From Candidatus Tectimicrobiota bacterium (GTDB taxonomy: Bacteria > JACPUC01), in the NCBI GenBank assembly GCA_016192455.1, contig JACPUC010000018.1:20593-84592 (forward strand): 64,000 nt of DNA, given 5' to 3'. Positions 8,760-20,752 of this stretch are shown here, one piece after another. The position numbers were made by a program, and so were the translations under genes. Position 1 is the stretch's first letter, and each line of letters starts with the position of its first letter. Below the pieces are notes generated by a model. That model saw only the letters and a list, made by a program, of their open reading frames with translations. It had not been told where the DNA came from and made no database searches.

Positions 8760-9191
8760 ATGAGCCAGCAACGAGCTGCCCTGGAAGAGGCGAACCGCCG
8801 ATTCTATCGGGCTTTCGAGAGCCTGAAGCTGGAGCGCATGGAGGGCGTGTGGAGGCGCGACGGCCAAATCTGGTGCGTGCACCCCGGTTGGCCGCTCCTC
8901 AGCGGCTGGGAGGCCGTCATGCGGAGCTGGCGGCTGATCTTCGAGGCCACCCGCTACATCGAGTTCGAACTCACGAACGTCTCGATCCATGCCCCGGCTG
9001 ACGGGCGGGGCGGCCTCGGCTGGGTCCTCTGCCAGGAGAACTTCCTCAGCCACGTCGGCGGCCAGACCGTACGCAGCAACGTCCTCAGCACCAACGTCTT
9101 CGAGTGGCGCGAGGAGCGCTGGCAACTCTTGCACCACCACGGCTCGCAGATCGTCCGCGACGCCCTGCCGCCGGAGTTCGGCGGGGGGTGA
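8760..9191 (+). CDS. NTF2-like / SnoaL-type protein
   Basis: This 143-residue single-domain protein begins with a helix (residues 1-30) and runs into the cone-shaped NTF2 fold: VWRRDGQIWCVHPGWPLLSGWEAV near 30-53, then strands ending in EWREERWQLLHHHGS. The Trp-rich sequences and the HPGW segment match the family often annotated DUF4440/SnoaL. Some members are small-molecule isomerases or hydrolases, but many are uncharacterised. The 115-base spacing behind the UbiD gene suggests a shared transcript. A role in that pathway is inference. Confidence 0.75.
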   Translation: MSQQRAALEEANRRFYRAFESLKLERMEGVWRRDGQIWCVHPGWPLLSGWEAVMRSWRLIFEATRYIEFELTNVSIHAPADGRGGLGWVLCQENFLSHVGGQTVRSNVLSTNVFEWREERWQLLHHHGSQIVRDALPPEFGGG

Positions 9192-9318
9192 GGCGACTTT
9201 TCGAGTGGCGTTCGCGCGGGAGCGAGGCACCTCTCCTCTTTAGGGTCTTTCTCGCGTTCCACGTGTAGGCCATTTCGGTGGCGTTAGTATGGGTACTCAG
9301 ATGGAGGGGGATGCACCA

Positions 9319-10245
9319 ATGGCTGGTCACTGGAAAGAAGTCGTCAGGCTCCGTTTTAAGGGCAGTCGATTTCGGGACCACGCATTAGACATTGGCGCCA
9401 TTACCGAACTGAGCCGCTTTCAGAAGATGATAGCGGAGACTGCGAAGACTCTCTGGCGTGAAAGTCATCCCGAACGAGAACGGCTCCCAAAGCATTTCGA
9501 AGAACGCACGAGCCTTTGCCTACGCAGAATCGCAGAAGGAAGTGCCGTGGCTCCCTTGGAGGTATACATCGGAGGACCTACGCAAGAAGAATTATTTGAA
9601 CAGGATACTGCCGAAACCGAAGTTGAAGAAGCGATCGAGTTAGCCCATAAGGTCTTCCATGCCGCACAAATAGATGAACCACTACCCCCGATATTCCCGA
9701 AGACATTAATTCCAGAATACGAAAACTTTGGGCAGGGACTTGAGGATGATGAGGAAATCGAGATGATGATAGATGAGAAGGAACCAGCCCATGTAACTCC
9801 TACATCACGCTCCCGCTTAGCTGCGTTGGTTGATGTTCCACACGAAAATCAGGTTGATGTAACAGGCGAGGTACTAGAGGCCGATGTCAGACAAGGACGG
9901 TTCCAGGTATGGTTGGATGAGAAGACTGGCATTTCTGCGGTATTCTCTCCGGAGCAGGAAGACCATGTAACAGGTGCACTTCGGGACCACAATACATTGC
10001 GACTTCAAATCATTGGCGAAGGGGAGTTTTCTCCACAAGGCAAACTTTTGCGTATCACAAAAACGGAAAGGTTGTTACTTAAGACTCTGGCAGATGCGGA
10101 AGATGCTTACGATACCACCGTCAAGCCTATAGAAGATGTCCTGACCGAGTTAGCCCGAGAGGTTCCCCAGGAAGATTGGGATAAACTTCCGCCTGACCTT
10201 ACAGACAACCTCGATCACTACCTTTACGGAACACCTAAGCGATGA
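9319..10245 (+). CDS. Uncharacterised protein paired with a PIN toxin-like gene
   Basis: I do not recognise a named family. The ATG at 9319 has a strong GGAGGGGG site 8 bases upstream, so it is preferred over the frame-open ATG at 9289 and gives 308 residues. The N-terminal part (about 1-90) is helical and basic (WKEVVRLRFKGSRFRDHALD, FQKMIAETAKTLWRE). The middle (about 95-160) is very acidic (DDEEIEMMIDEKE). Residues about 170-250 look like a small beta-barrel (VDVTGEVLEADVRQGRFQVWLDE, HNTLRLQIIGEGEF). The tail is helical. The stop overlaps the PIN gene by ATGA, so the two are translationally coupled. Base composition is visibly AT-richer than the flanks, suggesting transfer. An antitoxin-like or guide role for the PIN nuclease is inference. 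Confidence 0.75.
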   Translation: MAGHWKEVVRLRFKGSRFRDHALDIGAITELSRFQKMIAETAKTLWRESHPERERLPKHFEERTSLCLRRIAEGSAVAPLEVYIGGPTQEELFEQDTAETEVEEAIELAHKVFHAAQIDEPLPPIFPKTLIPEYENFGQGLEDDEEIEMMIDEKEPAHVTPTSRSRLAALVDVPHENQVDVTGEVLEADVRQGRFQVWLDEKTGISAVFSPEQEDHVTGALRDHNTLRLQIIGEGEFSPQGKLLRITKTERLLLKTLADAEDAYDTTVKPIEDVLTELAREVPQEDWDKLPPDLTDNLDHYLYGTPKR

Positions 10246-10664
10246 GAACGGTCTTTGTCGACACACTTTACTGGGTTGCTAGAGTTCGACCGTGCGACCC
10301 TTGGGGAGAAGCTGCACGGCTGGCCAAATCGTCACTTGGGGCAGTTCGCCTCTTAACTACAGACGAAGTTCTAACCGAGTTCTTAACCGCTCTCTCGAGG
10401 GGAGGTGAACATCTGCGACGTCAAGCAGTAAGAATGGTACGAAGTATTCTTGACGATCCAAACGTTCAGGTCACTCCTCAGTCTCGAAATTCATTTCTTC
10501 GAGGCATTGAACTGTACGAACAACGTCCCGACAAAGAATACAGCTTAACCGATTGTATTTCAATGAGTACGATGAGGTCTCTATCAGTTGCTGAGGTGTT
10601 GACAAACGATACCCATTTCAACCAAGAAGGATTTCGAGTACTAATAACCAAGCAAGAATCCTAA
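10242..10664 (+). CDS. PIN-domain ribonuclease (VapC-like)
   Basis: This 140-residue single PIN domain has the acidic tetrad in order: D7 (FVDTLYW), E46 (VLTEFL), D104 (SLTDCIS) and D123 (LTNDTHF). PIN proteins are Mg2+-dependent RNases and often toxins of VapBC pairs. Here the upstream partner is 308 residues and unlike the small DNA-binding antitoxin VapB. The coding start lies on the ATGA overlap with that partner. AT-rich composition is shared with it. The gene may be a toxin, an RNA-processing enzyme or a defence effector; sequence alone does not decide. Confidence 0.85.
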   Translation: MRTVFVDTLYWVARVRPCDPWGEAARLAKSSLGAVRLLTTDEVLTEFLTALSRGGEHLRRQAVRMVRSILDDPNVQVTPQSRNSFLRGIELYEQRPDKEYSLTDCISMSTMRSLSVAEVLTNDTHFNQEGFRVLITKQES

Positions 10665-10853
10665 ACTGATAAGTGGGCACATCGAGACACGTTGCCCGGC
10701 GTGAAGCGGCTCTCTCCTTCTTGCAGCGAGGGCCACCCACCGATTTCCCCGCGCCCCACATTTCGTCCCCCTGTGCCCTGCCGCAATCTGCATGGCTTCG
10801 CGGGCGTGGTCAAGCATGTGCCGCAGCCGCACCGCATCATCATGCCGCGACAT
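10641..10853 (-). pseudogene. hepT: Truncated HepT (HEPN) toxin gene
   Basis: The frame starts at ATG 10853, overlapping the end of the MNT gene by 14 bases, the usual arrangement for mntA-hepT. The first 28 residues (starting MSRHDDAVRLRHMLDHARE) match the HepT N-terminal helix. After about 10770 similarity stops and the frame continues with unrelated Arg- and Gly-rich residues to a stop at 10641, inside the end of the PIN gene on the other strand. The HEPN catalytic RxxxxH motif is absent. This is a deletion or replacement remnant, and its break coincides with the edge of the AT-rich PIN island. Confidence 0.65.
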
Positions 10854-11139
10854 ACAGGTCCTCCGCCTCTTCCAAAATCTCATCGCGAAAGTAAGGGCTG
10901 AGGAAGCCAGGCGTGTTGAGGTCTACCTTGCGTCCCAGAATCTCCGAGAGTTCGCGTTCGATGGCAAAGAACCGCAGACCTACCCTCGTCTGCGGCTCGA
11001 ACTCGACGAGCATGTCAACATCGCTGTCGGGCCGGAAGTCCTCACGCAGGACGGAGCCGAACAATGCCAGGCGCCGGACGCGGTGCCGTTGGCAGAAATC
11101 GCGGATGGCTTCCGCCGGGATGTGAATGCGCGCGCTCAC
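10840..11139 (-). CDS. MNT-type nucleotidyltransferase (MntA antitoxin-like)
   Basis: This 99-residue minimal nucleotidyltransferase has LFGSVLREDFRPDSDVDMLVEF at about 27-48. It contains the GS(x)nDxD motif that binds ATP and metal, plus a third Asp in GRKVDLNTP near 73. In MNT-HEPN pairs, MntA AMPylates and neutralises the HepT RNase. It starts with GTG at 11139 after GAGGTGA. The partner gene immediately downstream is broken, so this appears to be an orphan antitoxin. It is divergent from mtaB across 230 bases. Confidence 0.85.
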   Translation of the reverse strand: MSARIHIPAEAIRDFCQRHRVRRLALFGSVLREDFRPDSDVDMLVEFEPQTRVGLRFFAIERELSEILGRKVDLNTPGFLSPYFRDEILEEAEDLYVAA

Positions 11140-19560: not shown

Positions 19561-19660
19561 GTGGCCGCCAGGGAGCCGAGCTGCGGACAACGCCGCGCAG
19601 ACCGAACGTCGGCGGCGGCCTTAGGCGCTCGATCCTTGGGATGGCGTGCTCGGGCCTCCC

Positions 19661-20752
19661 CTAGACGTTGAACCGAATGGTGATGACATCGCCATCGGCC
19701 ACCACGTACTCCTTACCCTCCATACGCAGCAGAGCGTGCTTGCGTGCTTCCGCCAGGGAGCCGAGGCGGAGCAGCTCCGGGCAGGGCACCACCTCCGCGC
19801 GGATGAAGCCTCGTTCGAGATCGGAATGAATCGTTCCCGCCGCCTTGGTGGCCGCGGCGCCCGCCGGCAGCAGCCAGGCCTTCACCTCATCCTCGCCGAC
19901 GGTATAGAAGGTGATCAGCCCGAGGGCTTCAAGCGATGCTTGGAGGAGGGCGGCGCGCGCCGTCCGGGTGATGCCGAGTTCTTCCATGAAGAGAGCTGCA
20001 TCGTCCGGTTCAAGTTGCTGCAGCTCGAGTTCCAGCTTGCCGCAGAGGACACAGAGGTGATCGGGCGGCGCCAGGACCGGTTGGAGCGTGGCCGTCACCG
20101 CCCTGCCTCGATCCTCTTGCTGGAGGGCTTCAGAGATGTTCAGCACGACCACCTGCGGCTTGGCCGAGAGGAGGCCGAAGCCGCGCAGCCGCGCCTGCTG
20201 AGCTTCGGTAAACCTGTGCCGCCGCAGTGGCAGGCCGTCTCCCAGCAGCACGGCGCAGTGCTCCAAAATCTCGATTTCCTCGGCTTCGACGGCCTTATCC
20301 CCCTTGGCGCGTCTCGCCTGCAGGCGTTCCAGGCGGCGCTCGACCACCTGGAGGTCCGAGAGGACAAGTTCCGTCGTCAGATCGGCGTAATCGCGCCCCG
20401 GGTCGACGGACCCTGCCGGGTGTGGCGCCAGCTCCGACTCGAAGGCGCGCACCACGTGCACCAGGGCATCGATCCCCTGGTAGGCCGACATGAGCTGGTC
20501 ACCGCGGCTCTTCACGCCGGCGCCGAAGAGCGTCCCCTCCACATCGACGAACTCAATGGCGGCATGGGTGCTCTTCTTCGGATCGTAGAGCGCGGCCAGC
20601 GCCTCCACCTGCTCGTCGGGAACCTTCACCGTCGCCAGGTGCAGGCGCACGGCTCCCTGCTGCTGCCGTGTGGGGGAGGAGTCGGGAGGTCGGAGGGCTT
20701 CAAAGATCGTCGTTTTGCCGCTGTTCGGCAAGCCGATGAAGGCGATGCGCAT
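19661..20752 (-). CDS. ychF: YchF/OLA1-family P-loop ATPase
   Basis: The protein has 363 residues, the typical YchF length. The G1 loop is GLPNSGKTT at residues 7-15, where GLPNVGKST is commoner. DVEGTLFGAG near 69 is the G3 region, and the altered G4 NISE near 205 gives YchF its ATP rather than GTP preference. A coiled-coil insert lies at about 130-170. The C-terminal TGS domain (GLITFYTVGEDEVKAWLL, AAGTIHSDLERGFIRAEVV) covers about 280-363. The frame is open to 20971, but ATG 20752 gives the family start MRIAFIGLP. YchF associates with ribosomes and stress responses. Confidence 0.9.
   Translation of the reverse strand: MRIAFIGLPNSGKTTIFEALRPPDSSPTRQQQGAVRLHLATVKVPDEQVEALAALYDPKKSTHAAIEFVDVEGTLFGAGVKSRGDQLMSAYQGIDALVHVVRAFESELAPHPAGSVDPGRDYADLTTELVLSDLQVVERRLERLQARRAKGDKAVEAEEIEILEHCAVLLGDGLPLRRHRFTEAQQARLRGFGLLSAKPQVVVLNISEALQQEDRGRAVTATLQPVLAPPDHLCVLCGKLELELQQLEPDDAALFMEELGITRTARAALLQASLEALGLITFYTVGEDEVKAWLLPAGAAATKAAGTIHSDLERGFIRAEVVPCPELLRLGSLAEARKHALLRMEGKEYVVADGDVITIRFNV

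Follow-up and report, generated by a model that had tools for sequence, protein, structure and literature searches.

The gene pair and its genomic setting

The 64-kb window (the whole stretch of DNA analysed here) contains a gene for a PIN-domain protein preceded by an overlapping gene for a 308-residue partner. The earlier note, made from the letters of the DNA, had suggested an unusual toxin-antitoxin or defence pair; the open reading frames, their coordinates, the ATGA overlap and the four acidic residues of the PIN protein (D7, E46, D104 and D123) were all found as it had given them (Table 1). An alternative upstream ATG is listed for the large gene at 9289; the start at 9319 is supported because GGAGGGGG lies 8 nt upstream and because a homologue opens with the same MAGHWKEVVRLR. 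Both genes are genuinely coding, since a Nitrospinota MAG keeps the same two genes in the same order (50% identity for the partner and 57% for the PIN protein). The pair had also been called AT-richer than its surroundings, and indeed its GC content is 48.6%, against 67.4% for the window, with GC3 values of 46% and 39% for the two genes; this contrast, and the fact that no other part of the 64 kb of equal length is richer in AT, make it almost certainly a foreign islet, recently acquired by horizontal transfer.

Table 1. Positions of the features discussed (window coordinates unless a locus or accession is named)
Feature	Position	Strand	Evidence
GGAGGGGG, resembling a ribosome-binding site, 8 nt ahead of the start of the 308-residue gene	9303..9310	+	sequence
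308-residue partner (probable antitoxin), predicted M32A-like module plus C-terminal PIN-neutralising tail	9319..10245	+	308-codon ORF, PADLOC, tail HMM
Module similar to PDC-M32A (residues 6-252), with the acidic middle and a strand-rich (possibly OB-like) segment inside it	9334..10074	+	PADLOC PDLC04575, E=1.8e-45
Tail of antitoxin type (residues 267-308, VKPIEDVLTELAREVPQEDWDKLPPDLTDNLDHYLYGTPKR); small antitoxins linked to PIN have homologous C-termini	10117..10242	+	independent tail HMM, E=1e-19
Overlapping stop and start codons (ATGA), by which the two genes are likely coupled in translation	10242..10245	+	sequence
Predicted PIN-domain RNase, VapC-like toxin, 140 codons	10242..10664	+	Pfam PF01850, E=1.7e-7
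Orphan 61-aa phage ORF	L008:3058-3243 (MaMV-DL02); LMM01 NC_008562 near 19605-19766; also MaMV-DL01		identity to HsdS tail

According to Pfam, the pair is bordered on one side by a SnoaL-like gene and on the other by a minimal nucleotidyltransferase gene on the opposite strand; genes of housekeeping appearance lie further out, some of which we take to be UbiD-like and MtaB-like. By appearance, the neighbours are ordinary genes of metabolism and tRNA modification, and no defence island was seen around the pair. A search of its own genome returned a single copy of the large protein and a single copy of its tail. As a side observation, a minimal nucleotidyltransferase gene (NTP_transf_2) stands beside a PIN pair both in the window (10840-11139, minus strand) and in genome G294 (L077:6628-6960), possibly by coincidence or possibly because both sites belong to a shared toxin-antitoxin hotspot. 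A MNT/HEPN remnant downstream of the pair was considered and rejected: the nucleotidyltransferase is clear, and the suspected HEPN remnant has no Pfam match.

The PIN protein

The closest solved relative of the PIN family profile is VapC20 of Mycobacterium tuberculosis (E=3.4e-21), a 23S rRNA endonuclease. D7, E46, D104 and D123 are invariant in nine PIN relatives, and a sequence added later, from locus L030, has Asn in place of D7. This PIN (L077:6065-6496), which also has a different start overlapping the end of its antitoxin gene, is possibly an inactivated toxin, as far as the substitution can indicate. Relatives of the window PIN occur on plasmids of Microcystis (53% identity), Stanieria (50%), Salinibacter (35%) and Nostoc (30%), each preceded by a gene for a small protein. 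The closest one found (62% identical) belongs to genome G253 and another (52%) lies beside a HicB-like antitoxin, while the PINs of the fusion relatives described below are 36-57% identical. The PIN tree is poorly resolved and gives no support to monophyly of the fusion-associated PINs. AlphaFold models of two PIN sequences were of too low confidence for fold searches.

Domain architecture of the large protein

The partner had been thought to belong to no described family, which holds for Pfam and NCBIfam, where the 308-residue protein has no match, and fails for PADLOC, where residues 6-252 align to positions 4-250 of the 375-position PDC-M32A profile. A PDB sequence search with the protein returned nothing usable, and a family-profile match (9hnh_A) was restricted to two short stretches. 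The C-terminal third of PDC-M32A is absent from the window protein and a tail of about 42 residues, ending in ...LPPDLTDNLDHYLYGTPKR, stands in its stead. As read from its sequence, the large protein is thus a chimaera of an M32A-like module and a PIN-antitoxin tail. The three regions earlier distinguished in it fared unequally: the middle is clearly acidic (net charge -18 over residues 90-165), the N-terminus is hardly basic (+3 over residues 1-90), and the beta-barrel-like segment does correspond to strands at about 178-256 in an AlphaFold model, but that model is too poor to be trusted or used for fold searches (mean pLDDT 53; three partner sequences predicted). Structure prediction yielded neither a confident structure nor a confident model of the complex.

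PDC-M32A and PDC-S02 are listed in PADLOC as phage-defence candidates, and PDC-M32 appears as a prediction in PMC12429752, so that PDC-M32A is itself only a candidate anti-phage system. Like PDC-M32, the window pair consists of two overlapping genes with the large one first; unlike it, the pair contains no M32B match, the partner gene being PIN. The canonical M32A proteins (368-401 aa) examined come from plasmids of Limnohabitans, Rhodococcus, Rhizobium and Sinomonas, from viral contig L021 and from genomes G195 and G460. All seven are followed by M32B and none by PIN, whereas PIN, as detected with a custom PIN HMM, lies directly downstream of all seven fusions, six of them intact (window, L002, L025, L030, L031 and L032) and one with a broken antitoxin (L033). 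The difference (7/7 against 0/7; Fisher p=0.0006) concerns fusions retrieved with tail-containing profiles, which favour tail-bearers; whether PIN lay next door played no part in the searches. The antitoxins of the other intact pairs are 34-54% identical to the window protein and all six pairs keep the gene order and the tight junction. The question whether homologues of the large protein always precede PIN thus has a double answer: canonical M32A homologues have M32B and no PIN, and every tail-bearing one has PIN. Since the homologues without PIN are exactly those without the tail, the link with PIN runs through the tail, a segment that the earlier note had not singled out. Whole-genome sampling covered about 900 genomes; when viral contigs were scanned for the fusion, a single canonical M32A and a phage tail were all that came up, and a stricter tail pattern returned none.

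Distribution of the tail

An independent tail HMM was built from eight tail proteins (small antitoxins and the PDC-S02-like protein of locus L036), with no M32A fusion included. It recovers all six intact fusions, always at the C-terminus (E=1.9e-10 to 2.3e-21), and none of the canonical M32A proteins (best E=9.8). The same tail, or its core, forms the C-terminus of most of the small proteins that precede the plasmid PIN relatives. The N-termini of the small tail antitoxins differ, being MazE/AbrB-like, AF2212-like or HicB-like, or Phd in genome G104; the HicB-like label is our own reading, with just a weak UPF0150-like match for one protein. In a second, large phylum, that of genome G163, whose members have a cyanobacterial appearance, the tail was present in 46 of 386 genomes, and PIN directly followed 24 of the 31 tail proteins examined. 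Neither Pfam nor NCBIfam contains a model for the tail family, and its motif HDHYIYGTPK was not met in word searches of a partial library of open-access literature.

The tail is also carried by larger proteins. In genome G253 (L036:979-2039), a 215-residue protein with a PDC-S02-like N-terminus (PADLOC, E=7e-8) ends in the tail and is followed by the closest PIN mentioned above. In genomes G731, G733, G747 and G776, the tail forms the C-terminus of a type I specificity subunit of about 550 residues (Methylase_S checked for G731 and G747). The order HsdM (with a HSDR_N domain), HsdS-tail, PIN was found at L073:997-5035, L074:4978-9025 and L075:2605-6664; the flanks retrieved for these three loci contain no HsdR. 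On a Skermanella plasmid, an HsdS with 53% identity is without the tail region, and no neighbouring gene is annotated as PIN; tail and PIN are therefore gained or lost together in HsdS as in M32A. The HsdM-HsdS(tail)-PIN operons, for which no earlier description turned up in the partial open-access library searched, apparently encode a restriction-type complex wired to a PIN RNase.

Finally, the tail occurs in phages. The Microcystis phages LMM01, MaMV-DL01 and MaMV-DL02 contain a 61-aa ORF, unannotated in LMM01, that matches the HsdS tail of G731 with 92.6% identity over 54 aa (55/59 in a fuller alignment); no PIN lies beside it at the MaMV-DL02 locus (L008), the one checked. We regard it as a candidate phage-borne antitoxin with a possible counter-defence role, which would fit a phage that retains just the putatively inhibitory peptide. 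The YGTPK form of the tail lies within ORFs of other function on three IMG/VR contigs (L022, L023 and L024), at loci without PIN; L023 is a 198-kb viral contig with the tail in a reverse-strand ORF ending near 1597. This form had no match among cultured phages.

Proposed function and alternatives

We propose that the window encodes a VapBC-like modular toxin-antitoxin pair whose antitoxin is unusually large, a reading that we consider probable. The PIN protein would be a growth-arresting RNase, and the last 42 or so residues of the 308-residue protein would bind and block it in the manner of linear neutralising elements. The M32A-like module of about 250 residues would replace the usual small DNA-binding domain and serve to regulate or to sense; upon its degradation, or upon a disturbance of which phage infection is the most plausible cause, the tail would release PIN and growth would stop. 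Sequence comparison supports the module boundaries, the tail's homology with the small antitoxins linked to PIN, the strict co-occurrence of fusion and PIN, and the foreign origin. We infer from homology, with good comparative support, that the tail would neutralise PIN, by analogy that the M32A module may sense, and further that PIN may target RNA and serve an anti-phage role by abortive infection. The initial suggestion of an unusual toxin-antitoxin or defence pair is supported. The variety of N-terminal modules joined to the tail and PIN, and the position of canonical M32A/M32B beside type I restriction genes described below, also speak for the proposal. Counted against the proposal are the D7N PIN of L030, the broken antitoxin of L033 and the absence of a surrounding defence island.

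As in VapBC systems such as VapC20, a PIN gene with four acidic residues follows an antitoxin-type gene with an ATGA overlap, and the antitoxin ends, by homology, in a neutralising-type segment; the usual antitoxin is small, whereas this one has 308 residues and no recognised DNA-binding domain. Panacea antitoxins join exchangeable linear neutralising elements to folded, possibly sensory domains (PMC10440598), and by the same logic the tail would keep PIN inactive and the M32A module may decide on its release; the window protein differs in its M32A-like domain and its distinct, putatively neutralising PIN-specific tail. The HsdM-HsdS(tail)-PIN operons resemble the window pair in bearing the same C-terminal tail on a defence component with PIN directly downstream and differ in having a type I specificity subunit as the carrier. 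In PrrC-EcoprrI, a restriction-guarded anticodon nuclease, a translation-blocking RNase is kept silent by a defence protein (PMC3874168); the concept is alike and the proteins are unrelated, so this is an analogy only. No prior description of such a fusion pair was found in the open-access literature searched.

A wider reading, which we advance tentatively, is that the 'DHYxYGTPK' tail may be a portable PIN safety catch on restriction or defence components (M32A-like, PDC-S02-like and HsdS), such that interference with them would free the RNase and lead to abortive infection, and that the phages LMM01, MaMV-DL01 and MaMV-DL02 may answer with the tail alone. The defined peptide ties the uncharacterised PDC-M32A to a well-understood toxin class and turns this domain into a testable question, namely what makes the module let PIN go. 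The tail also offers a sequence handle by which host components connected to PIN toxins can be found, and it supplies a concrete candidate for phage counter-defence.

The strongest alternative, unlikely in our view yet the one to be taken most seriously, is an ordinary addiction module of the VapBC type, chromosomal or mobile, in which the M32A-like part would do no more than provide a scaffold for autorepression, by dimerising or by binding DNA or RNA, without any phage sensing. Other N-termini joined to this tail are DNA-binding antitoxin domains of the classic autoregulatory kind, and the AT-rich islet and the low prevalence (matches of any kind in 10 of 386 genomes) also fit. However, no DNA-binding domain is recognised in the M32A-like part, which is large and is common to a defence candidate, no clear promoter-proximal palindrome for autoregulation was seen in 9150-9330, and the other large tail carriers are defence proteins. 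Improbable, in our judgement, is a RNA-targeting effector complex in which the M32A-like protein would bring PIN to foreign nucleic acid, with the tail as a docking peptide and not an inhibitor: the HsdM-HsdS(tail)-PIN operons without HsdR in their fetched flanks would fit a tethered PIN, and the M32A segment may, in the low-confidence model, be a nucleic-acid-binding fold, but tail carriers are mostly small antitoxins with nothing to target, and the tail alone in phages suits an inhibitor better than a recruiter. That PIN and its partner are unrelated neighbours in a decaying or chance pair, as L030 and L033 might suggest, is ruled out for practical purposes by the linkage conserved across the six intact pairs at the identities given above.

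Regarding canonical PDC-M32A/M32B, we observed that it adjoins type I restriction genes at three loci, L021, L034 and L007 (HsdR-like, HsdM-like and an annotated R subunit), hinting that PDC-M32 may be a restriction-associated accessory.
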